Made by a program: the position numbers and the translations under genes. Shown here in pieces: positions 8,821-58,402 of a stretch of 64,000 nt of DNA; positions within the stretch are counted from its first letter, which is position 1, and each line of letters starts with the position of its first letter. The DNA comes from Sphingomonas sp. GTDB taxonomy: Bacteria > Pseudomonadota > Alphaproteobacteria > Sphingomonadales > Sphingomonadaceae. The notes beneath the pieces were generated by a model that worked only from the letters and a program-made list of their open reading frames with translations, had not been told where the DNA came from and made no database searches. The stretch is taken from the NCBI GenBank assembly GCA_017418975.1, contig JAFOMG010000005.1, positions 35,447 through 99,446 of the forward strand. Direction: 5' to 3'.

Positions 8821-10245
8821 ATGCGAGACGAGTATCTTTCGTTGTTTCTGCCGCAGGACATCCTGCTCGAATCCTTCACCTTCCCCTTCTTCGACATCAA
8901 CTACACCGTCGATCCGGTGGCGATGGCGAGCCTGTTCCACAACACCCCCGATCCCACGCCGGGGCGCGGCAAGCGCGGGCTCTATGTCCACATACCGTTC
9001 TGCGAGACGGTCTGCGCCTTCTGCCCCTTCATAAAATCGGTCGGCACGCTGGAGCGGATCGAACGCTATCTCGAGGCGCTCCATCTCGAGATCTCGATGC
9101 TCGCGGAAACGCCGCTTTGCGGGTCCTGGACGTTCGATGCGGTGTATCTCGGCGGCGGGACTCCGTCGGTGCTCAGCCCGCGCCAGATCGATGCGCTGCT
9201 GGCGCATATCCGCTCCGCCTTCCGCCTGTCGTCCGATCTCGAAATGACGATCGAGGTCGAGCCGAAATCGGCGACGGAGGCGTTTTGCGCGGCAGCGGCG
9301 GGCGCGGGGGCGAACCGCGTTTCGTTCGGCGTCCAGACGCTGAACCCACGCTATCGCGAGATGATGAACCTCACCGCCTCGCTCGACCAGATCCAGGCAT
9401 TGGCCGCCCGGTCGCGCAAGCTGTTCGAGGCCGCCAATTTCGACATGATCGTCGGCTATCCGGGCCAGACCGAGCGCGAGGTGGAGGACGACATGGCCGC
9501 CGCGCTGGCGCTCGACGTGGGGAATATCTCGGTCTTCCCGCTCGATTATCTCGCCACCTTGCCCAGTTTCCTCGATCGTGTCCGCCGTGGCGAATATCCG
9601 CCGCCGCCGCCGAGCGCGCGGCGCTGGGAGCTCTTCCATCACGCCCGTGCCGAGCTCGCCAGGGGCTATGACGCCCAGAACATGTATTTCTTCTCGGAGC
9701 CGGGAATGCCGGGTTGCCGCTACATGTTCGATATCGTGTACGGCGGCTATTTCGACGAGTTCGTCGGGGTCGGGGCGGGTGCCTACAGCATGCTCAGGGG
9801 GCTGGCCTACAGCAACGATCAGTTCGAGAGGAACTATACGCAGGCGCTGCTCGAGGAGCGCAGGCTGCCGATCGCCATGGCCACGCCGGGCCATGCCTAT
9901 GAGAAACACTATGTCTATTTCGGCAAGCGCACGCGCGCCGATCTCTCGGAGGCCCGGGAGCTCGGCATCGATACGGTCATCGCCGCGAAATTGAATGCGC
10001 TGGAGGGTGCGGGCTATGTCGCGCGCGATCGGCAGCTTTACACGCTCACCCCGGCGGGGGAACGTATCTATGCCCAGATCATGGTAGGTTTTCTGAGCGA
10101 CCATCAGCGCCGACTCTACGATCGGGTCTGCCTGCGGATGAAAGACAAGCTGAACTGGAACTTCGACGGCGCCCAGAGCGCGGACACCGCCGCGGCGCGG
10201 GGCCTGGCCGCGTTCAATGTGATGCCGCAGCGCAAGGCGCTCTAG
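8821..10245 (+). CDS. HemN-like radical SAM enzyme
   Basis: Protein of 474 aa. YVHIPFCETVCAFC holds the radical-SAM cluster ligands Cys61, Cys65 and Cys68 (Cx3Cx2C). The GGGTPS motif, the FGVQTLN segment and the C-terminal winged region (GKRTRADLSEARELGID) place it in the HemN/HutW/HemW superfamily. The extra cysteine of true HemN (CxC) is replaced by Pro-Phe, so it is unlikely to be coproporphyrinogen dehydrogenase. HemN-like class C enzymes methylate natural products and HutW types handle heme; either could apply. Its place after an NRPS and ATP-grasp gene suggests tailoring of the peptide. The ATG at 8821 is preferred because AGGGGG lies 7 nt upstream; an ATG at 8773 is possible. Confidence 0.85.
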   Translation: MRDEYLSLFLPQDILLESFTFPFFDINYTVDPVAMASLFHNTPDPTPGRGKRGLYVHIPFCETVCAFCPFIKSVGTLERIERYLEALHLEISMLAETPLCGSWTFDAVYLGGGTPSVLSPRQIDALLAHIRSAFRLSSDLEMTIEVEPKSATEAFCAAAAGAGANRVSFGVQTLNPRYREMMNLTASLDQIQALAARSRKLFEAANFDMIVGYPGQTEREVEDDMAAALALDVGNISVFPLDYLATLPSFLDRVRRGEYPPPPPSARRWELFHHARAELARGYDAQNMYFFSEPGMPGCRYMFDIVYGGYFDEFVGVGAGAYSMLRGLAYSNDQFERNYTQALLEERRLPIAMATPGHAYEKHYVYFGKRTRADLSEARELGIDTVIAAKLNALEGAGYVARDRQLYTLTPAGERIYAQIMVGFLSDHQRRLYDRVCLRMKDKLNWNFDGAQSADTAAARGLAAFNVMPQRKAL

Positions 10246-10583: not shown

Positions 10584-12174
10584 CGGCGGCCTCCCGAACC
10601 TCGGGCCGGGCAACCTCGGGCCGGGCAGGGACGGTGCGCCGGCTTGGCCGGGCCGCAGCGATCGGCCGCTTTGCCAGCCGCCACGCCGCGAAGCCGAGCG
10701 CCGCGGCCAGCAGGGCCATGGTGGCGTCGAACGCGAGGAAGAGGCCATCGAACGGCTGCGGCGCCGACGGAATCCCGCGCATGGCGGCCAGATCCGCGAT
10801 GGGGATCGCCGCGAAGACCAGGGCAGCGATCGCCAGCGTCTCGATCCACGCCCGGCAGGCCGGACGGAGCAGCGACAGCCCGGCCAGCCCGAACCAGGTC
10901 CAGAACATGGCGGAGACCTCCAGATCGGCACGGCCGGGCAGCATCGGCGGCAGCAACCGGTTGGCGAGCAGATATGCCGCCATTCCCGCGGGCAGGCAGG
11001 CGATCACCCCGATATTGAGCCGTTCGACGAGCGACAGGCCGAAGAAGGGCTTCGCGCCCGGCCTGCGTCGCTTCACGGTCCACAGCACCAGGCCCGTCGC
11101 GACCATCGCGCCGCCGGTAAGGCCGAGCAGGAAGCAGACCCAGCGCAGCAACGGCCCGGCGAACCAGGCCAGGTGCAGGCCGAGCATCACGCCGGCGGTC
11201 TCCACGGCGGGGCCGGGCGCGGGAGAGGCGGCCAGCCTTTGGCCGGAGCCGCCGGCATAGGTGATCGATGCACCGCGCGCGTTCAGCCTGTCGTCGCTCG
11301 AGCGGAGCAGCGTGACGGTGGAGGATGCGTCGTCGGGATTGCCCACGATGATCCGCGAGACCCGGGCACCCCGCCATTCCGCCGATGCCGCCTCGACGAA
11401 CCGTGCGATGTCGGCGAGCTGTCCCGGCCGCCCCGATGCGCGCTGATTGGCGGTGTCTCCATAGAGGCTCGCGGAAAAGGCGGCGGGCTGCGGATAATTG
11501 GCCGCGATCGGCCAGGGCATGTACATCACGACGAGCGTGATCAGCCCGGTATAGGTGATCATCGCATGATAGGGCAGGGCGAGCACCGCGGAGACGTTGT
11601 GCGCGTCCAGCCAGCTGCGCTGCCCCTTGCTCCAGCGCAGCGTGAAGAAATCGACGAATATGCGCTTGTGCGTGATCACGCCGGACAGGATCGCCCCGAG
11701 CATGAACATCGCGCACAGCCCGGCGAGCCACCTGCCCCAGGGGTGGGGCAGCTGCAGCTGGAAATGGAAGCGATAGAAGAATTCGCCGCCGCGGGTCTCG
11801 CGCGCCTCGACGGGGAGGCCGTTTGCCGGATCCAGGCGGATTTCCGGCCGGCGCGGCGCGCTCGGCGCCTTGGGATCGGGGTTGGGCCGGGCGCGTGTGA
11901 ACACCCGGGTCACGAGCGTGCGCTCGGTCGGGAGGTAGATGGTCCATTGCTCGTCGTGCGGCGCGTTCCGCTGGAGCCAGGCGATAGCGCCGCGGGCCGC
12001 TTCGGACTGGGCGACGGGCCGCGGCCGGAACTCCGGTTGCATCCACCGAGTGACCTCGGGGCGGAAATAGCTCGCGGTGCCGGTCAGGAACATCGCGAAG
12101 AGGATCCAGCCGGCGACCAGTCCGAGCCAGCCATGGATCCACGCCATCGACTGGCGCAAGCCCTTGCCCCTCAC
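10573..12174 (-). CDS. PepSY-associated TM protein, FpvG-like iron reductase candidate
   Basis: Protein of 533 aa. The GTG start at 12174 forms a GTGA overlap with the DUF3649 stop, which decides the start over longer in-frame options. An N-terminal helix (WIHGWLGLVAGWILFAMFLTG) is followed by a periplasmic PepSY-type loop, then the LPHPWGRW / SGVITHKRIF / DAHNVSAVLALPYHAMITYTG block with conserved histidines suited to heme binding, and four more C-terminal helices. In Pseudomonas, FpvG of this family takes part in reductive iron release from the siderophore; this one probably does the same for the ligand of the adjacent receptor. Expression is likely Fur-controlled from the shared divergent promoter. 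Confidence 0.85.
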   Translation of the reverse strand: MRGKGLRQSMAWIHGWLGLVAGWILFAMFLTGTASYFRPEVTRWMQPEFRPRPVAQSEAARGAIAWLQRNAPHDEQWTIYLPTERTLVTRVFTRARPNPDPKAPSAPRRPEIRLDPANGLPVEARETRGGEFFYRFHFQLQLPHPWGRWLAGLCAMFMLGAILSGVITHKRIFVDFFTLRWSKGQRSWLDAHNVSAVLALPYHAMITYTGLITLVVMYMPWPIAANYPQPAAFSASLYGDTANQRASGRPGQLADIARFVEAASAEWRGARVSRIIVGNPDDASSTVTLLRSSDDRLNARGASITYAGGSGQRLAASPAPGPAVETAGVMLGLHLAWFAGPLLRWVCFLLGLTGGAMVATGLVLWTVKRRRPGAKPFFGLSLVERLNIGVIACLPAGMAAYLLANRLLPPMLPGRADLEVSAMFWTWFGLAGLSLLRPACRAWIETLAIAALVFAAIPIADLAAMRGIPSAPQPFDGLFLAFDATMALLAAALGFAAWRLAKRPIAAARPSRRTVPARPEVARPEVREAADVA

Positions 12175-12461
12175 GGGCGGATCCCCAGCAGCAGCGCGGT
12201 GCCGCCGGCGGCGATGGCCGTGCCCCAGATCAGGCCCGCAACCCGCACGAGCCGCGGCTCGTGAAACGCCCATAGCCCGAACATGGCATAGAGCAGGAAG
12301 GAAAGGATCATTCCCCAGACGGTGGCTTCGACCCGCGCGACCGGCAACGACCGAGCCGCCAGCGTCGCCAAGGCCGCCGCCGCGGCATAGCCGCCGACCA
12401 GCGCGGTCAGGCAGCGCCCCGCCATCGACCATCGCTGCCCGACTCCCTGGGCCCTCGCCAT
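12171..12461 (-). CDS. DUF3649-like membrane protein
   Basis: Protein of 96 aa from the ATG at 12461, chosen because AGGGGG lies 6 nt upstream; an in-frame ATG at 12488 also exists. It has three hydrophobic segments (CLTALVGGYAAAAALATLAA, ATVWGMILSFLLYAMFGLWAF, VAGLIWGTAIAAGGTALLLG), as in the DUF3649 family of iron-uptake operons. It is the first gene of the operon and reads away from the Fur box. The end overlaps the next start (GTGA). Probable role: inner-membrane subunit for siderophore-iron reduction. The family has no proven enzymatic activity that I know of. Confidence 0.7.
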   Translation of the reverse strand: MARAQGVGQRWSMAGRCLTALVGGYAAAAALATLAARSLPVARVEATVWGMILSFLLYAMFGLWAFHEPRLVRVAGLIWGTAIAAGGTALLLGIRP

Positions 12462-12510
12462 TCCATTCCCCCTTTTCCCGCCTTGCATCGGCTGGCGATC
12501 CCTCCTAGCA

Positions 12511-45806: not shown

Positions 45807-45834
45807 TTGACATAAAAAAATCCAAACCTTTAAT
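45807..45834 (+). promoter_or_regulatory. Sigma70-type promoter of the regulator gene
   Basis: TTGACA at 45807, a 16-bp spacer and TTTAAT at 45829 (5 of 6 to TATAAT). Transcription would start near 45841, giving a short leader before the GTG at 45864. Confidence 0.65.
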
Positions 45835-45863
45835 GATGGATGCGACCGAGGGGGGATAATTCG

Positions 45864-46532
45864 GTGTCAAATATTGATGTGGCGCGTGATATAACTCGCG
45901 CTGTTCGTTCTGCTGAGCGTTTCGCTAAGGGTTTGCGCGAGATACAATTAAAACTCGATGGGCTTTCGCAGCAATCTGTAGAACAAATAAACACATCTGC
46001 TACAATTTTTAGTGCAAATTTATCGGATAACCTGAGTGCGTCCGATGTTAAACTTGCATTGTCGCGGTCGCAATCGCGGCCGAACTTCGGGGCACCCGAT
46101 CTTTTCGGAAATGCGCTTTGGAGCCTTATGCTCGAGCTTCTGCTGGCCGAGATGGACGGCGAGGCCGTTCCCGTCAGCAATGCGTGCATCAGCCTGGGTG
46201 GGCCGCAAAGCACGGCTATCCGCCTCCTAAACTGCATCGAGAAGCGCGGATTGGTGGTGAGTCAACCCGACCCCAGCGATGGCCGCCGACGCCTTCTGCG
46301 CCTTGCTGAATCGGTCAGGGCAAAGCTGATCGCCCATCTTGAGGCTGAGCACTCGGGCGGCGCGGTGCGTTTCCGGGTCAACATGAGGCTGACCGAGATG
46401 CGCGAAGATTCCGCAGAGGGGGCGCAGGGGGACGAAGTATCCCCATCGTGCATGACAAGTTTTGATCAGAAAGCTCCAGTATTGGATGCAGTCAATAACG
46501 ACGCAAATTCTGTATTCCTCAAAGTATCTTGA
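45864..46532 (+). CDS. MarR-like winged-helix regulator
   Basis: Protein of 222 aa from a GTG at 45864, preferred because GAGGGGG lies 9 nt upstream and the predicted transcript starts near 45841; an ATG at 45840 would leave almost no leader. The N-terminal 65 residues are helical, perhaps coiled (ITRAVRSAERFAKGLREIQLKL). The wHTH spans about 85-155 (LFGNALWSLMLELLLAEMDG, STAIRLLNCIEKRGLVVSQP, DPSDGRRRLLRLAESVRAKL), close to MarR. The AT-rich codons differ from the operon downstream. It probably controls the peptide gene through the palindrome at 46546. Confidence 0.78.
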   Translation: MSNIDVARDITRAVRSAERFAKGLREIQLKLDGLSQQSVEQINTSATIFSANLSDNLSASDVKLALSRSQSRPNFGAPDLFGNALWSLMLELLLAEMDGEAVPVSNACISLGGPQSTAIRLLNCIEKRGLVVSQPDPSDGRRRLLRLAESVRAKLIAHLEAEHSGGAVRFRVNMRLTEMREDSAEGAQGDEVSPSCMTSFDQKAPVLDAVNNDANSVFLKVS

Positions 46533-46545
46533 GATGGGATGTAGC

Positions 46546-46579
46546 ATTAGTCGAATTGCAACAGGTGCTTTCGACTAAT
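46546..46579. promoter_or_regulatory. Perfect inverted repeat before the peptide gene
   Basis: ATTAGTCGAA and TTCGACTAAT are exact 10-bp arms around a 14-nt loop, ending 15 bp before the ATG at 46595 and next to the AAGGGG ribosome site. It could be the operator of the upstream winged-helix protein or an mRNA hairpin controlling translation. Confidence 0.65.
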
Positions 46580-46594
46580 CTAAGGGGAAATATG

Positions 46595-46840
46595 ATGCGT
46601 AATCTTTCTCTCGTCGAGCTGGAAATGATCGTCGGCGGCTATGGCGAGTTCGACGCCGGAAGCTATGCCAGCGTCGCCACGGATAATGGCGATGGCAGCT
46701 ACTCGCTCGTCGTGAGCGAGGCGCAGTATTCGGCTCAGGCCGGTGCCGCAGCCGACAATGGCTGGGGCGTCGAGGTTACCGGCGGCTGGACTCAGAACGG
46801 CGGCTTCTCGGTGGGCGTCAAGGCCTCGAAGAAGTGCTGA
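46595..46840 (+). CDS. Double-glycine-leader precursor peptide
   Basis: Peptide of 81 aa from the ATG at 46595 (AAGGGG 7 nt upstream; ATG at 46592 also possible). MRNLSLVELEMIVGG is a textbook GG leader, close to the colicin V leader MRTLTLNELDSVSGG, so the C39 exporter downstream should cut after Gly15. The 66-aa remainder is rich in Gly, Ala, Ser and Asp, with aromatic residues spread through it (YGEFDAGSYASVATDNGDG; GWGVEVTGGWTQNGGF), and ends KKC with the only cysteine. It may be a class II microcin-like bacteriocin or a modified RiPP. It is the first gene of the operon and is followed by a terminator. Confidence 0.82.
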   Translation: MRNLSLVELEMIVGGYGEFDAGSYASVATDNGDGSYSLVVSEAQYSAQAGAAADNGWGVEVTGGWTQNGGFSVGVKASKKC

Positions 46841-46847
46841 TGTGATC

Positions 46848-46880
46848 GCGACGCCCCGGTTCGCCGGGGCGTCGCATTTT
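46848..46880 (+). terminator. UUCG-loop terminator after the peptide gene
   Basis: GCGACGCCCCGG and CCGGGGCGTCGC are perfect 12-bp arms closed by TTCG, then ATTTTG. It lies 7 bp after the peptide stop and 20 bp before the acyltransferase start, so it should make peptide mRNA abundant and let a minority of transcripts run on. Confidence 0.75.
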
Positions 46881-46894
46881 GCAAGTGTGGTGTC

Positions 46895-47839
46895 ATGGCA
46901 GATCCCGTTCCGTTGCCGTCGCAGAGCGAAGCTGATCGCCGTGGCGCCTACTCCCTGGCCGAACGCGGTGTCCGCCTATTGGCGCGTCTCCCGATGCAGG
47001 TACGCCGGAAGCTGCTCCGCTCGGCCTTTAGCCTCTCGCGGGCATCCGGGTTGTTGCGGCCCTGCGGCAGGAGCGCGTGGATGATGGCCAGGGTCTTGCA
47101 GTTGCCTCGTGCGCAGGCGTGGAAGCTGGCCGGCGAGAACGGCTATCATGATCTGCTTTTCCAGATGGAATGGCTCGCGCTCGCCGATCGCTCGCTGCCT
47201 GGGCTGCTCGCCGATGCCGCAAACGTCCGGACTGAAGATGATGATGCGCTGCGCTGGATTTCGCGCCAGCGCGGCGCGGTTCTGGCGACGCTGCACATGG
47301 GGCCCTATTCGCTGGCGCTTGCATGGCTGCTGCATCGCTATTTCCGCGACCGCGACGTCATCATCGTCAAGACGCAAACCGCGGATGATGACGAGAGCCG
47401 GGCGATGAACCGCCTCGATCAACTGGGCGTACGCGTGGCACTGATGGCGCCGACGGAGCCGGCGGAGTTTCATGCGCTGCTCAAGCGAGTGCGCATGGGG
47501 GCGATCCTGATCGCGCTGGTTGACCTGCCCGAAAGCTATGGCCGTGCGGTAGATGCCGACTTGCTCTGGACCCCGGCGCGGATCGCGGCGGGTGCGGTCG
47601 ATATCGCGGCACTTTGTCAGGTTCCGCTTCTGCTGTTCCGGGCCGAGGCGCGGGGCACGGGCGACCAAGTCACCGTGGCGGACCTGCTCGAAGTGCCTTC
47701 GCGACAAGGCGAACGTGACCGTGCGACCGGAAAGGTCGCGTCCTTCATCACCAACTCCGTGCGCGGCTGCCCCGAGCAATGGCATATGTGGCAGCGCTTC
47801 GACGAGTTCGTCACCGCGCGGCAGCGGTGCGCGGCATGA
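46895..47839 (+). CDS. LpxL/HtrB-like acyltransferase
   Basis: Protein of 314 aa. GAVLATLHMGPYSLALAWLL and late PEQWHMWQRFDEF resemble the late lipid A acyltransferases (LABLAT family), which move acyl chains from ACP. His134 is present, but the acid expected five residues later (HX4D/E) is Ser139, so catalysis may be altered. No N-terminal membrane anchor is obvious. In this operon, with an ACP and a ketosynthase, it could acylate the peptide; membrane lipid acylation is the alternative. The ribosome site is weak; translation may rely on read-through past the terminator. Its end overlaps the adaptor gene (ATGA). Confidence 0.75.
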   Translation: MADPVPLPSQSEADRRGAYSLAERGVRLLARLPMQVRRKLLRSAFSLSRASGLLRPCGRSAWMMARVLQLPRAQAWKLAGENGYHDLLFQMEWLALADRSLPGLLADAANVRTEDDDALRWISRQRGAVLATLHMGPYSLALAWLLHRYFRDRDVIIVKTQTADDDESRAMNRLDQLGVRVALMAPTEPAEFHALLKRVRMGAILIALVDLPESYGRAVDADLLWTPARIAAGAVDIAALCQVPLLLFRAEARGTGDQVTVADLLEVPSRQGERDRATGKVASFITNSVRGCPEQWHMWQRFDEFVTARQRCAA

Positions 47840-49077
47840 CCGCCATCCTCACCAAGCCGCGTAGCGCGGCCGACATGAATTCGAAAGTGCTGCTCGCGCA
47901 GCCCGTGTTCGACCATGTCTTGAGCATATTCTTCGGCTCGCTGCTCATCGTGGGGGGAATCTTCTGCTGGGCCACGCAATATTCGAAGCAGGAGACGGTA
48001 TCCGGCGAGATAGCCGCGGTCTCGGGCTTCTCGGCGGTCGTCGCCGATCAGGGGGCGATCGTCTCGCAACTGCGAGTCACCTCGGGCACGCGCGTCCATA
48101 AGGGGCAGGTGCTGGCGGTGCTCAGCCTGCCGCCGGTGATCAGCGGCGACGGCGACACTATCGCGCAGAGCATCCAGCGCATGCGCGAGTCCATCGCGAA
48201 CATGGACAGTCAACTCGCCGAATATGCGCGGTCGAGCGAGGAGGCGCGCCACCAGATCACCGAGGTCGAGGCGAGCGCCCAGGCATCGCTCGCCTCGGCG
48301 CGCAATCGCGGCAGCGCGACCAAGGAGCGCCAGCAGATGGCCGAGCGGCGCCTGCGCGGCTATGAGCAACTCGCCAGCAAGGGCTTCATCACCGACATGG
48401 CCGTGGACCAGGTGCGCGGCGTGGTCATGCAGCTCAACCAGGAAGCCTCGGACACCGAACTGACCCTGCAGGAGGTACGGCGCTCCCGCGCCGATCGCGT
48501 GACCGCGCTCGAGAACCGCATCGCCGAGATCCGCCAGGCGATGCTCAACCTCAGCACCCAGCGGCTGCAGACCGAGAACCAGCTGCACGGCCAGACCTCG
48601 CTGCAGACGCGCGAGATCGTCGCCCCCGCCGACGGCGTTGTCGCGGCAGTTTCGGTGCGGCCGGGCGAGCGCATCGAGGCCGGCGCGCGCATCCTCGCCA
48701 TCGGCCAGCCTGCGGCACGGCTGACCGCCGTCCTCACCGTGCCGTCCAAGGCGATCGGCATGATCGATGTCGGCCAGCGCGTCGTGCTGAAGTACGACGC
48801 CTTTCCCTATCAGAGCTTCGGCGTGCGCTACGGCAAGGTCGTCCGGGTCGAGCAGGCCTCGATCGACACCGGCGCACAGAAGCCCGACGACGCCAAGCAG
48901 ATCGAACGCAACTTCATCGTCGAAGTGGCGCCCGCCGACGACGCAGTCGAGGCCTATGGCCGCCGCCGCGCGCTCAAGGTCGGGATGACGCTGACCGCCG
49001 ACATCGAAGTCGAGCGGCGCAACCTGCTGCAATGGTTCCTGGAGCCGCTCGTCGCACTCAAGGGACGCATGGGATGA
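47836..49077 (+). CDS. HlyD-like membrane fusion protein
   Basis: Protein of 413 aa from the ATG at 47836. One N-terminal helix (SIFFGSLLIVGGIFCWATQYS) is followed by a biotinyl-lipoyl half (VSGFSAVVADQGAIVSQLRV), a long coiled coil (about 100-245, MRESIANMDSQLAEYARSSE; TALENRIAEIRQAMLNLSTQ), and the second half (EIVAPADGVVAAVSVRPGERI) with a barrel. It bridges the ABC exporter to an outer-membrane channel, as in CvaA/HlyD. The start overlaps the acyltransferase and the end overlaps the ABC gene (ATGA both times). No TolC is encoded here; the chromosome should supply one. Confidence 0.92.
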   Translation: MTAILTKPRSAADMNSKVLLAQPVFDHVLSIFFGSLLIVGGIFCWATQYSKQETVSGEIAAVSGFSAVVADQGAIVSQLRVTSGTRVHKGQVLAVLSLPPVISGDGDTIAQSIQRMRESIANMDSQLAEYARSSEEARHQITEVEASAQASLASARNRGSATKERQQMAERRLRGYEQLASKGFITDMAVDQVRGVVMQLNQEASDTELTLQEVRRSRADRVTALENRIAEIRQAMLNLSTQRLQTENQLHGQTSLQTREIVAPADGVVAAVSVRPGERIEAGARILAIGQPAARLTAVLTVPSKAIGMIDVGQRVVLKYDAFPYQSFGVRYGKVVRVEQASIDTGAQKPDDAKQIERNFIVEVAPADDAVEAYGRRRALKVGMTLTADIEVERRNLLQWFLEPLVALKGRMG

Positions 49078-51206
49078 ACCTGTTCGAATCCGGGCGGCGG
49101 ACGCTGCCCATGATCCTGCAAGAGGCCAATGGCGAGTGCGGGATCGCCTGCATGGCGATGATCGCGCACTGGCACGGTCACCGGCTCGACTTGACCTATC
49201 TCCGCAGCCAGTACCGCACGACGCGGCGCGGCCTCAGCCTTTCCGACCTGGCCAGTGTCGCCGACCAGCTGCGCTTCGATGTGCGGGGCTTCCGCGTCGA
49301 TGATTTCGCCGATCTCGCCCATGTCCGCACGCCGGCGATCCTGCACTGGGACAGCAATCACTTCGTCGTGCTGAAGTCGGTCCGGCGCGGCCGCGTCGTC
49401 ATCCACAATCCCGCGATGGGCGTGCGCACCTATGACATGGCCGAGTTTGGCGAGCATTTCAGCGGCACCGTCCTCGAGGTCTCGCCGGGCGGCGCGTTCG
49501 AGACGATCGTGCGCGCCAAGAAATACACGCTGTCGCGGATCTTCGACCTCACCCACGGCTTGAAGTCCTCGCTGATCCAGGTGATCGTCGTTGCCACCGC
49601 GGGTGCCGTCATCGCGATGCTGATGCCGATGATCGTCCAGGTCGCGCTCGATTCGGTGCTGCCGCGCAACGACCTCGACCTGCTATGGGTGCTCGCGGTC
49701 GGCCTGATGCTGGTCTCGATCAGCACCGCGGTGGCGACCTGGATCCAGAAGCGCGTCATCGCCAATGCCGGCAGCGCCTTCTTCGCGCAGCTGACGCGCA
49801 ACGCCGTGGGCCATATCTTCCGGCTGCCGCTGCGCTATTTCGAGGGCCGCCATCCGGGCGACGTGGCCACCCGGCTCGATTCGATCGATTCGGTGCGCAA
49901 TGTCGTCACCAAATCCTTCTCCGCCGCGGCGGTGGACCTGATCATGATCCTGCTGAGCGGCGCGATCATGTTTCTCTACGCGCCCGGACTGGCCGCACTG
50001 GTGAGCGCGATCTTCCTGATAGTCATCGCGATCCGGCTCACGCTCTATCCCTATATGCGCCGCCAGGGCGCAGTCGCGCTCAAGGCCAAGTCCGACGAGC
50101 GCTCGCGCCTCATCGACAATCTGCGCGCGGTCGCCGCGATCAAGACCGGCAATGCGACGATCGTCACCACCAACCGCTGGTACGACAGTCTGGTGCGGCA
50201 CGTGAATGCCAGCTTCCGCATCCAGATCACCGAAGCCAATGCGGTCTTGCTGGTCGAGCTGGTCACGGCGCTGGGCATGGCGGTGACGCTCTATTACGGC
50301 GTCGCCGCGGTGCTGCTCCAGCAAATGACCGTCGGCATGCTCTATGCCTTCTTCACCTATCGCACGATCTTCTTCGACCGGATCGACAATCTGGTCACGA
50401 CGATGACCGAGGTATCGCTGCTCGGCGCGAACATGACGCGGCTGTCCGATTTCCTTGAGGAGGAGCCCGAGCCGAGCGACCAGCCGATCGAGCGCCATAT
50501 CCGCGACGCGGTCAAACTGCGCGGCGTGACCTATCGCGCCGGATTCGCCGACGCGCCGATCCTGTCCGACATCGATTTCGAGCTTGGTGCGAAGCAGGGC
50601 AACGCGATCGCGATCATGGGTCCGTCAGGCTCGGGCAAGACGACGTTGCTGAAGATCCTGGCCGGACTCTACACGCCGAGCGAAGGCGCGATGGAAGTGG
50701 ACGGCGTCGGTCTCACGACCTGGGGCCTCAAGGCCTATCGCGCCAATGTCGGACTGGTGCTCGGCGCGGACAAGCTGGTGCGCGGCTCGATCCTCGAGAA
50801 CGTCACCGGATTCGAGGAAAGCCCCGACCGCGGCCGCGCGCTTTCGGCACTGCGGGTGGCCTGTCTCGATGACGTAGTCGAGGGATTGCCGCGCGGACTC
50901 GACACGGTGGTGAGCGAAGAGAACGGCACGCTCTCCAGCGGGCAGCGTCGCCGTCTGATGCTGGCGCGCGCGCTCTATGGCGATCCCCCTTTGCTGCTGC
51001 TCGACGAGGTTACTTCGAACCTGGATGCGGAAACCGCCACCCGGATGATCCGGGCGCTCGCCGAGCATCCCTCCACCAAGGTGATCACCTCGCACGACCC
51101 GCAGGTCCTGGAGATCTGCGACACCGTCTACCGCATGGAAGCGGGGCGCCTGACGCGCGACGCCGCCTATGAACAGCTTTCAATCCACGAGCGGAAAGGT
51201 CTCTGA
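49074..51206 (+). CDS. ABC exporter with C39 leader peptidase
   Basis: Protein of 710 aa in the order C39 peptidase (1-140), six-helix membrane domain (about 155-430) and NBD (about 480-700). The peptidase has Gln16, Cys22 (QEANGECGIAC) and His96 (HFVVLKS), but the usual catalytic Asp is Asn112 (IHNPAMG). The NBD has Walker A GPSGSGKTTLLKIL, signature LSSGQRRRLMLARAL, Walker B LLLLDEVTSNLD and H-loop TSHDPQ. Such transporters cleave GG leaders while exporting the peptide (CvaB, LagD types). The precursor at 46595 is the evident substrate. Confidence 0.94.
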   Translation: MNLFESGRRTLPMILQEANGECGIACMAMIAHWHGHRLDLTYLRSQYRTTRRGLSLSDLASVADQLRFDVRGFRVDDFADLAHVRTPAILHWDSNHFVVLKSVRRGRVVIHNPAMGVRTYDMAEFGEHFSGTVLEVSPGGAFETIVRAKKYTLSRIFDLTHGLKSSLIQVIVVATAGAVIAMLMPMIVQVALDSVLPRNDLDLLWVLAVGLMLVSISTAVATWIQKRVIANAGSAFFAQLTRNAVGHIFRLPLRYFEGRHPGDVATRLDSIDSVRNVVTKSFSAAAVDLIMILLSGAIMFLYAPGLAALVSAIFLIVIAIRLTLYPYMRRQGAVALKAKSDERSRLIDNLRAVAAIKTGNATIVTTNRWYDSLVRHVNASFRIQITEANAVLLVELVTALGMAVTLYYGVAAVLLQQMTVGMLYAFFTYRTIFFDRIDNLVTTMTEVSLLGANMTRLSDFLEEEPEPSDQPIERHIRDAVKLRGVTYRAGFADAPILSDIDFELGAKQGNAIAIMGPSGSGKTTLLKILAGLYTPSEGAMEVDGVGLTTWGLKAYRANVGLVLGADKLVRGSILENVTGFEESPDRGRALSALRVACLDDVVEGLPRGLDTVVSEENGTLSSGQRRRLMLARALYGDPPLLLLDEVTSNLDAETATRMIRALAEHPSTKVITSHDPQVLEICDTVYRMEAGRLTRDAAYEQLSIHERKGL

Positions 51207-51207
51207 G

Positions 51208-51474
51208 ATGAACGAAGACATTGAAGCCGATGTGATCTCGCTGGTCCGCGATGCGGCCCGCGTCGGCGATGTCCCGATCGATCTCGATACCAGCCTGGAG
51301 CAGCTGGGAATCGAATCGCTCGACATGGTCGAGCTGCTCTTCGCGATCGAGGACCGTTTCGGTATCGACGTGCCCTACAACGCCAATGCGGTCGGCGAAT
51401 CCGGCCTCGCCAAAGTGCGCGATGTCGTGACGGCGATCCGGCAACTCATCTCGCAGCGGACGGCGCAGGCGTGA
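51208..51474 (+). CDS. Acyl carrier protein
   Basis: Protein of 88 aa starting 1 bp after the exporter stop. TSLEQLGIESLDMVELLFAI contains the phosphopantetheine serine Ser37 in the IESLD form of the usual DSL; EDRFGIDVPYN is the recognition helix end. It would carry acyl chains as thioesters for the ketosynthase that follows and perhaps for the LpxL-like enzyme. A dedicated ACP next to a C39 exporter is unusual. No holo-ACP synthase is encoded here. The stop overlaps the next start (GTGA). Confidence 0.92.
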   Translation: MNEDIEADVISLVRDAARVGDVPIDLDTSLEQLGIESLDMVELLFAIEDRFGIDVPYNANAVGESGLAKVRDVVTAIRQLISQRTAQA

Positions 51475-52679
51475 GACGGGTCGCGATCACCGGTATCGGC
51501 GCGCTCACTGCCGGGGGCATCGATGCGGAGCGCAGCTGGCAGGCGGTACGCGATGCGCACCAGCCCTTCGGCGCGCCTTCGCGGCTGGGCGACAAGACAA
51601 CGGGCGTCAGCCGGGTCGCGGAGCTGCGCGACTATGACCCCGAGACCTATTTCGACCGGCGCCGGCTGAGCGCGCTCGATCCCGCCGCGCAATATGCGAT
51701 CGTCGCCGGGCGCGAGGCGCTGGCCCAGTCGGGCATCGATTTCGCCGATTACGATCCGGACCGCACGATGTGCGTGATCGGCAGCGGCGCCGCGGGCGAA
51801 GCGACGCACGACATGAGTTCCGAAAGGATCTACCGCCACGGCGCCGACCGGCTTCATCCGCTCACCGTGCCCCGGCTGATGGCGAGCGCGCCGGCGAGCC
51901 AGCTGGCGATCGAATTCGGGATCCGCGGCGGCGTATTCCTGATCGCATCCGCCTGCGCGTCGGCCGCCCATGCAATCGGACAGGCCTATCAGGCGATCCG
52001 TTACGGAATGGCCGATATAGCGATGACCGGCGGCACCGAGGCGAGCCTGACCTTTGGCTGCCTCAAGGGCTGGGAAGCGCTGCACGTGCTTTCCGACGAT
52101 CTTTGCCGGCCCTTCTCGTTCGGGCGGCGCGGGCTGATGCTCGGCGAAGGCGCCGCGATCCTGGTGCTCGAGGAGATGGAAGCGGCGCGCAGGCGAGGGG
52201 CCGACATATTGGGCGAACTGCGCGGGTTCGGGATGAGCTCGGATGCGGGCTCGCTGACCTCGCCCGATCCCGCCGGCATGGCGCGGGCGATGCGCCTGGC
52301 GCTCGCCGACGCGGGAGCCGACGCCGGCGCAGTCGATCATCTGAACGCGCATGGCACCGGCACCAACATGAACGATGCGAGCGAATGCCAGGCGTTGCAT
52401 CAGGTGTTCGGCGATCGCGCCACGCGCCTTCCCGTCACCGCCACCAAATCGGTGCTCGGCCATTGCCTGGGCGCCTCGGGCGCGATCGAGTTGGTGATGG
52501 CGGTGAAGTCGCTCGGCGCGCAGACGCTGGCGCCGACTGCGAACTTCGTCGAGCCGGACCCCGAATGCCCGATCGACTGCATCCCCAATGTTGCCCGCGA
52601 TGCCAGGATCCGCACGATCGTCTCCAATTCCTTCGCCTTTGGCGGCCTCAACGCCTCGCTGGTGCTCGGACATGCTTGA
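51471..52679 (+). CDS. FabF-like beta-ketoacyl-ACP synthase
   Basis: Protein of 402 aa from a GTG at 51471 overlapping the ACP stop. The triad is complete: Cys162 (IASACASAAHAIG), His294 (LNAHGTGTNMND) and His331 (TKSVLGHCLGASGAIE), with Lys326. RPFSFGRRGLMLGEGAAILVLEE is the typical gate loop. It condenses malonyl-ACP with an acyl chain. No reductase or dehydratase is present, so it would depend on primary fatty-acid synthesis or make a beta-keto or short product. It is closest in appearance to FabF/KS-alpha. It probably provides a special acyl group to the pathway. Confidence 0.93.
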   Translation: MRRVAITGIGALTAGGIDAERSWQAVRDAHQPFGAPSRLGDKTTGVSRVAELRDYDPETYFDRRRLSALDPAAQYAIVAGREALAQSGIDFADYDPDRTMCVIGSGAAGEATHDMSSERIYRHGADRLHPLTVPRLMASAPASQLAIEFGIRGGVFLIASACASAAHAIGQAYQAIRYGMADIAMTGGTEASLTFGCLKGWEALHVLSDDLCRPFSFGRRGLMLGEGAAILVLEEMEAARRRGADILGELRGFGMSSDAGSLTSPDPAGMARAMRLALADAGADAGAVDHLNAHGTGTNMNDASECQALHQVFGDRATRLPVTATKSVLGHCLGASGAIELVMAVKSLGAQTLAPTANFVEPDPECPIDCIPNVARDARIRTIVSNSFAFGGLNASLVLGHA

Positions 52680-53214
52680 GCGGGTGGACAGCTTCCTGGC
52701 CGCATGCATGACGGTGAACCCGGCCGCGCGGGATGCCGGCCTTCCGCCGTTCACAGCGCCGCTCGGGCGGGAGACACCGCTCGACAGTTCGCCTTATGTC
52801 TACGACGTCGCGCGCTTCGCCGATGCCTTTGCCGGCTCGGAACAGAGGCGGGTGCTGCTGACCGCGCTGCTGACGCGGGTCGCGGCGCTCGAGCAGGCCG
52901 GGATCCGTGTGGATCTGCTGCTCGTCGGCGGCAGCTTCTTGCGCCTCGGCCAGGAGCCGCGCGATATCGATGCGCTGGGCGTGTACACGCTGACCTGCGA
53001 TCCCGAGGCAGGCGCGGCGGCACTGTCGCAGGCGATGGCGCGCGGCGACATGGCAGATCTCCATCTCTGCCCTGCCGATGCGCATCCCGCAGTGCTGATC
53101 AAGCGCGCGATCTATTTCTCCAACACTTTTGCCTATGACAAGGGAACAGGGGCGCTCGATCGCGGAATCGTGATGGTGGTGCCGCGCCGTGCCGCCACGG
53201 CGGCCGCGGCATGA
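52672..53214 (+). CDS. Nucleotidyltransferase-fold protein, twin 1
   Basis: Protein of 180 aa whose ATG lies inside the ketosynthase end (8-bp overlap). LLLVGGSFLRLGQEPRDIDALGVYT shows the NTase signature hG[GS]x9Dh[DE] with Gly86-Ser88, Asp98 and Asp100. A helical stretch precedes it and VLIKRAIYFSNTFAYDKGTGALDRGIVMVV (summarised) follows. It resembles the DUF6932-like group. The neighbour is a paralogue. It may transfer a nucleotide to the peptide or to a carrier, or be a non-catalytic scaffold. The third acidic residue of the fold could not be assigned. Confidence 0.7.
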   Translation: MLERVDSFLAACMTVNPAARDAGLPPFTAPLGRETPLDSSPYVYDVARFADAFAGSEQRRVLLTALLTRVAALEQAGIRVDLLLVGGSFLRLGQEPRDIDALGVYTLTCDPEAGAAALSQAMARGDMADLHLCPADAHPAVLIKRAIYFSNTFAYDKGTGALDRGIVMVVPRRAATAAAA

Positions 53215-53729
53215 CGGGCGTTTCGATTGCCGGCCAGGCGATGCTGCGCGGCGAGGCGCTGGCCGTGCCCGCCCGCATGCTGCTTGCGCCGGAACCGGCG
53301 CCGAACATGTTCGCAAGCAGCCCGCATGTCGTGCGCTTCGCCTGGCTGTTCGAGCATCTCGCCTGGTCGCCCGGGCGCCGCGCTTTGCTGGAGCGCTTCG
53401 CGGCGCGGATCGAGGCGATCCGGGCGCAGGGCGTGATGCCATTGTGCGCGCTGATCGGTGGCAGCTTCGTCGGGACTGGCGAGGCGCCCAACGACCTGGA
53501 CGCGCTTGTCATCTACCGGGCCGATGCCGCGCCGGAGGCGATCGCCGCGGCGTTGAGCATGAAGATCGAAGGGCTCGATTTGCGCTACGTTCCCGAAGAT
53601 GCCGACCCGATCCTGCTCATCAAGATGACGTGCTTCTTCCACACGCTCTATCAGGGGATCGACAAGGGCGGCGGTCGCGGCAGCATATTGGCATTGTTTC
53701 ACGATCCGACATTGGCAGGAGCGGACTAG
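53211..53729 (+). CDS. Nucleotidyltransferase-fold protein, twin 2
   Basis: Protein of 172 aa with an ATGA overlap to twin 1. CALIGGSFVGTGEAPNDLDALVIYR has Gly83-Ser85, Asp95 and Asp97 at the same spacing as twin 1, and ADPILLIKMTCFFHTLYQGIDKG aligns with the AHPAVLIKRAIYFSNTFAYDKG part of twin 1. The pair therefore arose by duplication and probably acts as a heterodimer. An adjacent AbiEi-like fragment (55118) recalls AbiE systems, in which the toxin is an NTase, but that link is weak. Confidence 0.7.
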   Translation: MTGVSIAGQAMLRGEALAVPARMLLAPEPAPNMFASSPHVVRFAWLFEHLAWSPGRRALLERFAARIEAIRAQGVMPLCALIGGSFVGTGEAPNDLDALVIYRADAAPEAIAAALSMKIEGLDLRYVPEDADPILLIKMTCFFHTLYQGIDKGGGRGSILALFHDPTLAGAD

Positions 53730-54317
53730 ATGCGTTTTTCGATGACGATGTTTGCGGTCGCGGCCGCGTGGATGCCGGCCGTGGCGATGGCCCAGGCAGA
53801 GGCGCCGTTCACGGGTACCTATGTCGGGGTAGAGGCAGGCGCGCTCGAGCACCATATCTATCTGGAACCGCAGGGCGGCAACGGGACCGCAGGGCGCTAT
53901 TACCGCGCCTGGGGCGCGGGCGGGGGCGTGTTCGTCGGCCATGACATCGCGGTGGGAGAGCATCTCCGCATCGGCGGCGAGGCCGGCGTGACCGCGGGCG
54001 GGGGCGACAATGTCGTGCGCTTCGCGGGAGGATCGGAGCTGCGTCTCGCGCCGCGCTACGGCTATCGCGTCTCGCTGCACGGCGGGGCGGTGATCGGCTC
54101 GGCGCTCTTCGTCTATGCCAGCGGTGGCTATGGCGGCAATCGCTATCGGATCCGCAACACCGCGGGGGTCACCGGCGTGTCCGAATGGGGCGGCAGCTTC
54201 GAAGTCGGCGCGGGCGTCGAATACCGGATCTCGCCACGTCTCGGGATTCGGGTCGACTACAAGCATGTCGACAACCAGACCCATCAGTTCTTCGTCGGCG
54301 TGCCGGTCCGCTTCTGA
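53730..54317 (+). CDS. Outer-membrane beta-barrel protein
   Basis: Protein of 195 aa. The signal peptide ends at VAMA.QAE, followed by alternating strands (YVGVEAGALEHHIYLEP, GGVFVGHDIAVGEHLRIGGE, SLFVYASGGYGGNRYRI-like) and a terminal RLGIRVDYKHVDNQTHQFFVGVPVRF region with final Phe. This is the OmpA/OmpW/Opa-like eight-strand barrel pattern. It starts right after the stop of twin 2. It could protect the producer, serve as an exit or receptor component, or bind the product; the family alone does not tell. Confidence 0.8.
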   Translation: MRFSMTMFAVAAAWMPAVAMAQAEAPFTGTYVGVEAGALEHHIYLEPQGGNGTAGRYYRAWGAGGGVFVGHDIAVGEHLRIGGEAGVTAGGGDNVVRFAGGSELRLAPRYGYRVSLHGGAVIGSALFVYASGGYGGNRYRIRNTAGVTGVSEWGGSFEVGAGVEYRISPRLGIRVDYKHVDNQTHQFFVGVPVRF

Positions 54318-55111
54318 TGGGGCAGGGCAAGTCGGTCCTCGTCCTGTTGCTGCTCGGGCTGTCGATCGGCCTGACGCCCGGCTGGGCCGGGCAGATCGAC
54401 AGCCGCATCTTCCGGCCCGATCCGATGCCACGCGAGGTGCACTGGGCGGGGCCGGCGCCGGCGGAGGTCACCACCACCACGGCCGACGGCCTTCAGCTCA
54501 AGGGCTATTGGTGGGCGCCGACGCGCGCGGGCGCGCCCGTGCTGGTGTTCTTCCACGGCCAGAGCGGCAACCGCTTCGAATCTGCGACCATGGCGGCCGC
54601 GCTGGTGACCGACGGTCAGGGGGTGCTGGTCGCCTCCTATCGGGGCTATGGCGACAATCCGGGCAAGCCGTCGGAGACGGGGCTCTATGCCGATGGCGAC
54701 GCGTTTGTCCGGCTCGCGGGGACGCTCGCGCCGGGCGCGCGGCTCTATGTCTGCGGCTTTTCGCTGGGCAGCGCAGTCGCCCTGCACACGGGGACGGCCC
54801 CCGGCGTGCGCGGGATCGTGACGATCGGCGCCTTTACGCGCATCGCCGACCTCGCCTCGCCCGTTACACGTGCCTTCGTCGGAAACCGCTTCGACAATCT
54901 CGGCGCGATCGCGCAGGTCGAGAAGCCAGTGCTCCTGATCCATGGCACGGCGGACGAGGTCGTGCCCTTTGCCCATGCGGAGCGCTTGCGCGCGGCTGCC
55001 AGGCAGGCGCGCTTGCTTAAATTACCCGGCGCGCCGCACAGGCTGGATTTCGCGCAACTTGCGCCGATGCTCTGGAACAATCTGGCGCAGATGCCTGCGC
55101 CGCGCGACTAG
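54317..55111 (+). CDS. Secreted or membrane-anchored alpha/beta hydrolase
   Basis: Protein of 264 aa; the start makes TGATG with the barrel stop. An N-terminal helix or signal (VLVLLLLGLSIGLTPGWAG) is followed by the hydrolase fold: VLVFFHGQSGNR, ASYRGYGDNPGKPSE, nucleophile Ser149 in CGFSLGSAVAL, IHGTADEVVPFAHAE with the acid, and a late His in APHRLDFAQL. It resembles the BEM46/YtxM-like group. In a pathway with acyl transfer it could be a thioesterase, a depalmitoylase-type enzyme or an immunity enzyme. It is the last overlapping gene of the operon. Confidence 0.87.
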   Translation: MGQGKSVLVLLLLGLSIGLTPGWAGQIDSRIFRPDPMPREVHWAGPAPAEVTTTTADGLQLKGYWWAPTRAGAPVLVFFHGQSGNRFESATMAAALVTDGQGVLVASYRGYGDNPGKPSETGLYADGDAFVRLAGTLAPGARLYVCGFSLGSAVALHTGTAPGVRGIVTIGAFTRIADLASPVTRAFVGNRFDNLGAIAQVEKPVLLIHGTADEVVPFAHAERLRAAARQARLLKLPGAPHRLDFAQLAPMLWNNLAQMPAPRD

Positions 55112-56659: not shown

Positions 56660-58402
56660 ATGTTGCAGTTTCGACGCGCGGTTTCGCGCGGTGCGCCCGC
56701 GTGCGCGTTCTTGGCCGCCATGGGCGCGACCCCGGCGATGGCGCAGACCGCTTCCCAACTGACTCCGCCCAGCTTCCAGCCCCAGATCCAGCGCGATGGC
56801 ACCGCCCTGAAGCTCGCCGGGCCCGCCGCGGCGGAACCGCCGGCGAATGCCGAGCAGTTTCATGTCCAGATCGGTGACGTGATCGTGGAAGGCGCGCCTG
56901 CCGAGATGGCGCCCGCCGTAGCGCGCCTGCGTGCCGGGCTGAGCGGCCGCACCGTGACGGCGGCCGAGATCTTCCGTGCGGCGCGCGCGCTCGAAACCGA
57001 AGCGGCGGCAAATGGCCGGATACTCGTCCGCGTGCTGGTGCCGGAGCAGCGGCTGGAGAATGGCGAGACTCTCCGCCTCAGCCTGGTCGACGGCTTCATC
57101 GAGTCAATCGACACCAGCGCGCTGCCGCGGCCGATCCGCAATCGGATCGCCCATCTGCTCGCCCCGCTGACGGGCAGGCCCGGCATAACCTATCGCGAGA
57201 TCGAACGGCGCCTGCTGCTGGCGGGCGACACGCCCGGCACGGCGCTGCGCTCCACCCTGGCGGCGGGCGAGAAGCCCGGCGGGAGCAGGCTGGTGATCGA
57301 GGCGCGCTACCGCCCGGTCGGCGTGAGCCTTTCGGCGGACAACACGCTCTCGGCCGCGTTCGGCAACGAAACCTATGGCCTTGGCGTCACCTTCAACTCG
57401 GTGCTCGGCCTTGGCGAGCTCGTCTATCTCCGCGCCAATGGCCAGCCCTTCAACGGCGACTATGCGGAGCGGCGCCCGCTGAACCGGGCGCTCGCCGCCG
57501 GCTATGTCCTGCCGGTGGGACGCGACGGGCTGACGCTCAACGTCGAGTTCAGTGCCTCGAGCGCGACGCCGCGCGTCTCGCGGTTCGAACCGCCCATGGG
57601 ATCGGCCTTCTCGCGCTTCGCCGCGCGCGCCAGCTATCCGCTGGTCCGCGGCCAGGCATTGAGCGATTCCGTCACGCTCGGCCTCGACATCGCGCGCGAG
57701 CGGCTCGACTATATCGGTTCCGCGCGCCCGGTGGCGCTGGCACTCGATCGCCTGCGGGTGCTGCGGCTGACCAACGATCTCCGGATGCGATCGGAGGACG
57801 GCACCACGCTGACGGCGCTGGTCACGCTGTCGGTCGGTCTCGACGCCCTGGGCGCGCGGGGCGAGGCGGATGCGGTGCGGAGCCATGTCCCGCTTTCGCG
57901 GCAGGGCACGCGGCCCGATTTCCGTTCGCTGCTCGCCACGGTCGATTATTCCAGGCCGCTCGCGCCGCATCTGGCCATCGGGCTTCGCGGCATGGCGCAG
58001 ACTTCGTTCGGCATGCCCCTGCCGAATGCCGAGCGCATCGGGCTGAGCGGTCCCAACGCGCTCTCGGCGATGGAGTCCGGCGCGATGCTCGGGGATTCCG
58101 GATTGCTGGCGCGCGGCGAGATCCAGGCGCCCTTCTTCGCGCCGATCGCCCGCGATCGGGGGTCGATGCTCACCGCGCCCTATCTGTTCGTGGCGGGAGG
58201 CGCGGTGAACAATGATCGCCCCACCATCCTCGAGCGCGCATGGACAAGCGGGCTGTCCTGGGGCGGCGGCGTTCGGCTGGGCGCGGCGCCGCGCGCCAGC
58301 TTCGCCGGCACGAACCTGACCCTGGAACTGGGCCGCTCGACCAGGAGCGACCGGGCCCGTGCGTCCAATCGCTTCACCGCCTCTTTCAACCTGCAGTTCT
58401 GA
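56660..58402 (+). CDS. TpsB outer-membrane transporter (ShlB/FhaC family)
   Basis: Protein of 580 aa. The signal peptide ends PAMAQ. POTRA-like domains (FHVQIGDVIVEGAP, ARLRAGLSGRTVTAAEIFRAARALETEAAANGRILVRV given in part) precede a 16-strand barrel ending TASFNLQF. The conserved barrel motif region (VGVSLSADNTLSAAFGNETYGLGVTFNS, in part) fits the family. It secretes and folds the TpsA protein encoded 9 bp downstream across the outer membrane. An adjacent AraC-type gene is divergent. Confidence 0.9.
   Translation: MLQFRRAVSRGAPACAFLAAMGATPAMAQTASQLTPPSFQPQIQRDGTALKLAGPAAAEPPANAEQFHVQIGDVIVEGAPAEMAPAVARLRAGLSGRTVTAAEIFRAARALETEAAANGRILVRVLVPEQRLENGETLRLSLVDGFIESIDTSALPRPIRNRIAHLLAPLTGRPGITYREIERRLLLAGDTPGTALRSTLAAGEKPGGSRLVIEARYRPVGVSLSADNTLSAAFGNETYGLGVTFNSVLGLGELVYLRANGQPFNGDYAERRPLNRALAAGYVLPVGRDGLTLNVEFSASSATPRVSRFEPPMGSAFSRFAARASYPLVRGQALSDSVTLGLDIARERLDYIGSARPVALALDRLRVLRLTNDLRMRSEDGTTLTALVTLSVGLDALGARGEADAVRSHVPLSRQGTRPDFRSLLATVDYSRPLAPHLAIGLRGMAQTSFGMPLPNAERIGLSGPNALSAMESGAMLGDSGLLARGEIQAPFFAPIARDRGSMLTAPYLFVAGGAVNNDRPTILERAWTSGLSWGGGVRLGAAPRASFAGTNLTLELGRSTRSDRARASNRFTASFNLQF

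Follow-up and report, generated by a model that had tools for sequence, protein, structure and literature searches.

Lipidated ribosomally synthesized and post-translationally modified peptides (RiPPs) are already known as a kind. In the published portions drawn on here, the selidamides, lipolanthines, goadvionins and lipoavitides pair a ribosomal precursor carrying a leader with a clustered acyltransferase. According to the same portions, lipidated lanthipeptides use GNAT acyltransferases (PMC13060382), lipolanthines and goadvionins join the peptide to polyketide chains (PMC9505594), and the selidamide phaeornamide has an alphaproteobacterial source with a putative peptidase-containing transporter (PMC9505594). 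As described there, lipidated RiPPs rely on GNAT enzymes, polyketide hybrids or prenylation (PMC9505594, PMC13060382), which agrees with the original prediction for the locus studied here that known classes use other acyltransferase families. That locus, which likewise joins a leader-bearing precursor to a clustered acyltransferase, lies in a window of 64,000 nucleotides from Sphingomonas sp. (contig JAFOMG010000005.1), where an operon encodes a precursor with a Gly-Gly (GG) leader, an acyltransferase of PatA/LpxL fold (AT), an HlyD-type membrane fusion protein, a C39 peptidase-ABC exporter, an acyl carrier protein (ACP) and a ketosynthase (KS). Judging from its genes, the operon is probably an acylated-peptide export system in which the AT serves as the peptide acyltransferase.

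This reading is carried above all by the association of the AT with a particular exporter. The AT gene (46895..47839, +; PF03279 and an AlphaFold model) is followed by the HlyD gene (47836..49077, +; HlyD_3 and HlyD_D23) and the exporter gene (49074..51206, +; Peptidase_C39, ABC_membrane and ABC_tran), whose fused C39 domain scores 116.9 bits with PF03412 (cut-off 22). Searches with the AT matched 6 of 295 genomes in the window's genus (two of them one species), and in wider samples 3 of 397 at family level (one weakly), 5 of 385 at class level and 7 of 398 at phylum level. In the genus of genome G1298 (g314) 26 of 109 genomes matched, and a sample of the family of that genus gave 3 of 89, all three already found. 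Three AT queries against 72,556 plasmid records had a sole match, Rhizobium sp. SSA_523 pHM3, and a single-protein scan of the genome contig collection matched only Sphingomonas sp. CBMAI 2297. The strong matches (E <= 2e-20) amount to 35 distinct loci: six from the window's genus, one (L007) from its family, one from the Rhizobium plasmid, 26 from g314 and one from genome G465. The AT, HlyD and C39-ABC genes are adjacent at 34 of the 35, and their recurrence together in other genomes argues that this adjacency is not due to chance.

The exporter points in the same direction. When the same 295 genomes were queried with the exporter, six sites matched at 59-100% identity; the six genomes with these sites are those that carry the AT, and the next exporter among the matches listed reached 35% identity at most. 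In a tree of 45 exporters, rooted at its midpoint, the 21 AT-linked sequences form one side of a 100/100 branch that parts them from the 24 others, a split present in 100% of 200 bootstrap trees. A second midpoint-rooted tree, to which we added exporters from Phyllobacterium, two Methylobacterium and Rhizobium that lack an AT match within the 16 kb examined, separated 12 AT-linked from 16 other exporters with the same 100/100 support; both comparisons are with exporters other than named microcin exporters. AT and exporter seem to have been paired already when the sphingomonads and the other lineages split, and to have stayed together since, either through inheritance or through joint transfer. 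The prediction of an acylated, exported peptide holds as far as the association of AT, exporter and GG peptide goes, and acylation of the peptide is what we infer. The window exporter scores 423 bits with the NHLP bacteriocin export family TIGR03796, under its cut-off of 853. A second C39-ABC exporter of the same genome (L001, G000:C4:39729-41798) is 32% identical to that of the window and falls outside the AT-linked group. Among weaker AT matches, G340 (E 3e-4) was set aside, as were G397, G447 and G773, where no C39 gene was seen by eye and no similarity search was run, and G1139, G1324 and G1287, where the flanks examined held no C39 match. The AT-like genes of G397 and G773 adjoin what we take to be lpxK.

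A candidate substrate accompanies nearly every such cassette. The small open reading frame (ORF) at 46592..46840 (+; start at 46592 or 46595), with an upstream AAGGGG stretch, appears to be a genuine gene and would encode the leader MRNLSLVELEMIVGG and a 66-residue core that starts with Tyr and ends in KASKKC. Its relative in L028 is 90% identical, with a pairwise dN/dS of 0.20 (leader 0.08, core 0.24). Of the 34 AT-HlyD-C39 loci, 32 yielded GG-leader precursors (the window, L027, L028, L007, L029-L031, L008, L032, L033 and 22 others); none was found at L118, where the region contains 88 N, or at L131, which meets a contig end. Sphingomonad leaders follow the pattern MRxL...EL..I.GG or one like it, and most g314 leaders the pattern M(K/T)KLD...L..V.GG. 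The cores vary widely between loci; at L119 (8352-9476) six tandem precursors with nearly identical cores stand 5′ of one AT. The last residue is Cys or Ser in 58 of 60 precursors from 31 loci, and one of the two lies within the last two residues in all 60, a count that leaves out two antisense regex matches (L116:9224 and L122:10776) and the identical L027 copy. In a set of 18 dissimilar representatives, Cys or Ser is the last residue of 17, against 3.5 expected from core composition; the corresponding p of about 1e-12 assumes an independence that homologues do not have. Lysine was ruled out as a universal acylation site, since the L030 core has none. As a separate observation, GG peptides of the MRDL..EL..V.G..G type adjoin HlyD-C39 pairs at the AT-free loci L055, L058, L063, L059, L065 and L071; they are rich in Lys and have a Cys or Ser near the C-terminus.

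The ACP (51208..51474, +; PP-binding, with the phosphopantetheine Ser) and the FabF/NodE-like KS (51471..52679, +; both ketoacyl-synthase domains) extend this cassette. It had been allowed at the outset that homologous loci might never keep ACP, KS and AT with the peptide and exporter; they do so at 13 loci, the window and L027 included, and these are all of the loci with a linked ACP and KS: the seven sphingomonad loci, the Rhizobium plasmid, L032, L033, L103, L104 and L122. The Cys-His-His triad is kept in nine of nine cassette KS sequences, that of the window among them, and the phosphopantetheine Ser is seen by eye in 13 of 13 cassette-type ACPs, two of them unlinked, where the regex itself matched eight. 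The window KS is 40-42% identical to NodE/HsnB-type KS and 36% to the FabF of its own genome, and its best non-cassette plasmid match, from Xanthomonas sacchari (49.9%), adjoins ACP, GNAT and aminotransferase genes. Some relatives carry more: a MaoC-like gene stands at L032 and L033 (Pfam), with copies 57-59% identical at L103, L104 and L122, and a class III aminotransferase at L008 and L032 (Pfam), the two being 77% identical to each other. Monophyly of the cassette KS found no support, as these rows need three changes on the tree; that tree has only two NodE-type rows, which pair together, and its deep forks are unsupported. ACP-KS pairs were also noted on a X. sacchari plasmid (L039), together with a GNAT, an ABC/HlyD pair and aminotransferases of class III and DegT type, and on a Sphingobium yanoikuyae plasmid (L040), together with a type III polyketide synthase. 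At L122 (G1438) both AT and KS are split over two frames (9440-9889 and 11107-12491), through decay of the copy or sequencing error.

The favoured reading thus draws together the sharing of six genomes and the adjacency of AT and exporter, the exporter branch, the precursors with up to six tandem copies beside an AT, the retention of AT, HlyD and C39 at loci that have no ACP/KS, the conserved residues of the linked KS and ACP, the nearness of the KS to NodE-type enzymes, low dN/dS and the likeness of the AT model to PatA and LpxM. In the mechanism that we propose, the regulator would switch on the precursor, the ACP would carry an acyl chain and the KS would lengthen it. NodFE uses its own ACP for elongating an acyl chain of the host, and by analogy the window KS would do the same with the dedicated ACP. 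In some relatives a MaoC dehydratase, a class III aminotransferase or both would alter the chain further; a linked aminotransferase could turn it into a beta-amino-acyl chain, and MaoC could introduce a double bond. The AT would then move the acyl group from the ACP to a nucleophile of the core peptide, for which the C-terminal Cys or Ser is our best guess; where ACP and KS are absent, the donor would probably be acyl-ACP or acyl-CoA of the housekeeping pool. Finally, from family knowledge and the GG leader, the C39 domain would cut after Gly-Gly and the ABC-HlyD pair would export the peptide with TolC. A fuller version of this proposal, which we put forward tentatively and regard as doubtful, is that these are new alphaproteobacterial lipidated ribosomal peptides whose C-terminal Ser or Cys is O- or S-acylated by the PatA/LpxL-fold AT, with an exchangeable NodFE-like KS/ACP pair, and MaoC or the aminotransferase in some lineages, setting the chain, beta-keto- and beta-amino-acyl chains included.

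Several observations weigh against the acylated-peptide reading. The system is predicted here from its genes. The AT relative of G465 (L013:1624-3892), the exception among the 35 loci, is divergent and has a small GG-containing ORF nearby, and no exporter was found in the 16 kb of contig examined. In a control of 25 AT-free C39 loci with short flanks, six plausible GG peptides chosen by eye all had Cys or Ser within the last two residues, and one of the six had it as the last residue; a strict pattern gave five matches, none ending in Cys or Ser, and a relaxed pattern 31, of which three did. Because near-terminal Cys or Ser occurs in these AT-free peptides as well, the C-terminal residue is only a guess as acceptor. 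In addition, 10 of 20 g314 loci compared have arginase-family and ornithine-cyclodeaminase-family genes 5′ of the peptides (identified by Pfam for L110), which leaves the AT not clearly the sole modifying enzyme at loci without the ACP/KS module; these genes may be plain chromosomal neighbours or maturation enzymes. The ORF comparison of those 20 loci put 719 of 1532 ORFs into one uninformative group. The absence of ACP and KS from many loci and the active-site residues of the AT also count on this side, and both are taken up below with the alternatives to which they lend weight.

The main rival is that the AT acts on a membrane lipid, either lipid A or a phospholipid, as immunity of the producer, with ACP and KS supplying a special chain. 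The fold of the AT is indeed that of lipid acyltransferases, Lys or Arg occurs within the last four residues of 58 of the 60 cores, and we noticed no other immunity candidate common to the loci. However, six AT-free C39 loci of the genus, which matched HlyD and C39, had no AT, ACP or KS relative in the 14-20 kb examined, and the AT is restricted to one exporter group. On this balance we consider lipid-directed immunity unlikely.

In the next alternative, the peptide is a plain C39 bacteriocin or microcin-type product, and the fatty-acid genes make a separate lipid or signal that shares only regulation or export with it. This would fit the 21 of 34 loci with no ACP/KS match in the flanks examined, which identify ACP/KS as a module rather than a core component; the original prediction had made these genes part of the system, and their linkage at the remaining loci bears that out for some of its members. 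It would also fit the findings that ACP-KS pairs occur in settings such as nod clusters and that five of the 21 genomes (G1448, G1460, G1473, G1432 and G1471) carry, at another site, a KS with 63-72% identity to that of the module; G1416 has a 43% match and the remaining genomes have matches of 41% or less or none at the cut-off used. ACP-KS pairs with a KS at 63-71% to the module KS were seen at L125, L126 and L127, the AT cassette lying at another site, with MaoC in L125 and TolC and a hydrolase in L127. In the window, however, the ACP gene begins 1 bp from the exporter gene and the KS gene overlaps that of the ACP within one operon, and the AT stays with the exporter even where ACP and KS are absent: all 21 loci keep AT, HlyD and C39, and 18 of them have TolC. 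In the 45-exporter tree the module-less rows form one group (93/89) nested among module-bearing rows, which suggests that the module is ancestral and was later lost or moved; the smaller tree leaves the module-less fork unsupported. A separate lipid or signal therefore strikes us as rather improbable.

The remaining question concerns whether the AT is an enzyme. PF03279 (Lip_A_acyltrans) is the sole family found for it, at 24.4 bits in the window, 35.0 in L110 and 31.8 in L033 (cut-off 22.3), and its scores are far under the NCBIfam equivalog cut-offs. An AlphaFold model built from 26 sequences has a predicted local distance difference test (pLDDT) score of 87.8, and its fold search returned 14 PDB matches at E <= 0.001, 12 of PatA (best E 1.9e-12) and two of LpxM (best E 3.6e-11), and nothing else. 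All 26 sequences have His134, and Asp210 is invariant as well. The acid of the HX4(D/E) motif is absent from all 26, the residue five past His134 being Ser, Ala, Pro or Val. The window AT has L208 opposite PatA E200, in a region that aligns weakly, and D210 two residues further on. According to the part of PMC4792965 used here, the catalytic pair of PatA is His126-E200 and the HX4D Asp is not essential, as the D131A variant keeps 37% of activity; this weakens an argument for inactivity from the lost acid, though the position of E200 is Leu in the window. That the AT has no acyltransferase activity and acts instead as a chaperone of the peptide or a docking protein of the exporter, for which the lost acid and this Leu speak, is very improbable given the invariant His134 and Asp210, a pairwise dN/dS of 0.13 against L028, the ACP and KS companions and the activity of PatA D131A.

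The wider operon is in keeping with an intact gene set. On ORF and Pfam reading, its genes, order and strand, from regulator to hydrolase (45840-55111, all +), are as originally predicted. The complete set also occurs in the related genome L028, and ten genes, the precursor included and the regulator left out, have pairwise dN/dS of 0.05-0.24 between the two, which argues for a functioning gene set rather than a reading-frame accident. The host genome measures 4.7 Mb, and G966 is of the same species. Of the overlaps that had been proposed, ATGA is present at AT/HlyD (47836), HlyD/C39 (49074) and between the two nucleotidyltransferase (NTase) genes (53211), GTGA at ACP/KS (51471) and TGATG at barrel/hydrolase (54317); the C39/ACP junction has instead a 1-bp gap (51206/51208). 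The first gene (45840..46532, +) encodes a MarR-like regulator (MarR_2 E 0.005, under the cut-off) with relatives 5′ of the precursor in L027, L028, L007 and L029. The supposed terminator 3′ of the precursor did not stand: the element at 46848..46875 (+) is a GC-rich 12-bp hairpin with a TTCG loop and four T only after it, and the terminator scan did not report it. Similar hairpins were seen by eye in five of six distinct sphingomonad loci and none in L029; an attenuator or mRNA stabiliser is possible.

Downstream of the KS lie the paralogous DUF6932 NTase-fold proteins NT1 (52672..53214, +) and NT2 (53211..53729, +), which score 46.9 and 39.8 bits (cut-off 27) and conserve GG(S/G)F...DxD, an outer-membrane beta-barrel protein (53730..54317, +; OMP_b-brl 50.3 bits) and an alpha/beta hydrolase (54317..55111, +; weak esterase-family matches). 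The NTase model has a pLDDT of 74, and its best PDB matches, at E 0.015 or worse, are a designed protein and then a putative nucleotidyltransferase and MNT antitoxins; a sequence search of PDB gave no match at E <= 1. Among the seven sphingomonad loci, NT1 occurs in six, NT2 in five, the barrel in six and the hydrolase in six. The proposal that NTases and barrel belong to the system holds, patchily, for these loci, and no relatives matched in the other-lineage loci compared. The hydrolase, whose relatives include those in L007, L029 and L031, reaches further: L104 has a relative, and in L127 one adjoins the unlinked KS. Pfam assigns two relatives from other lineages to Hydrolase_4. These proteins would be accessories, perhaps for immunity or tailoring. 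Just 3′ of the operon (56660-58402) is an outer-membrane transporter that we take to resemble TpsB/ShlB-type two-partner secretion proteins. Elsewhere, a molybdopterin-oxidoreductase gene is also conserved 5′ of the cassette at L110-L113 and L115-L120, with the arginase- and ornithine-cyclodeaminase-family genes.

If our reading is correct, an enzyme family known for acylating lipids has been co-opted for the acylation of gene-encoded peptides, the peptide part and the fatty tail of the resulting lipopeptides could both be read from genes, and lipidated RiPPs would gain a tool besides GNAT enzymes. Given that the AT occurs in 26 of 109 g314 genomes and 6 of 295 of the window's genus, with variable and often tandem cores, many natural variants are at hand for testing. 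Among the top-ranked matches in open-licence PMC literature, we found no description of the combination of AT, GG peptide, C39 exporter and ACP/KS.

Each of the known systems shares part of this combination. NodF-NodE has, like the window, an adjacent ACP and KS with the KS triad and the ACP Ser; in R. tropici the ACP and KS lie two genes downstream of NodA and the KS is named NodE by its place, and the S. meliloti record has HsnA/HsnB. The acyl acceptor in Nod factor is a chitooligosaccharide. NodFE differs in that no C39 exporter is annotated there and the best non-cassette match of the window KS is not a nod gene; there is no NodA among the window operon proteins, and the AT did not match NodA. 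PatA, LpxL and LpxM share with the AT the fold, PF03279 and the conserved His, and differ in the acid that it lacks and in its peptide exporter context. The ACP of a peptide maturation system, TIGR04069, likened here by its NCBIfam name, gives the window ACP 16.4 bits against a cut-off of 70. Class II microcins and other C39-exported GG-leader bacteriocins have the GG leader, C39-ABC and HlyD in common with the window, which adds the AT and ACP/KS and has an exporter in a group separate from the AT-free exporters compared. In the part of PMC12636315 considered, a lipidated macrocyclic peptide appears to be a lipidated RiPP made without GNAT, via the lipoprotein pathway. Among the window operon proteins there is neither a GNAT nor a lanthionine synthetase, and compared with GNAT-lipidated RiPPs the version found here, pending its product, is a different one, built on a PatA/LpxL-fold AT and short GG leaders.

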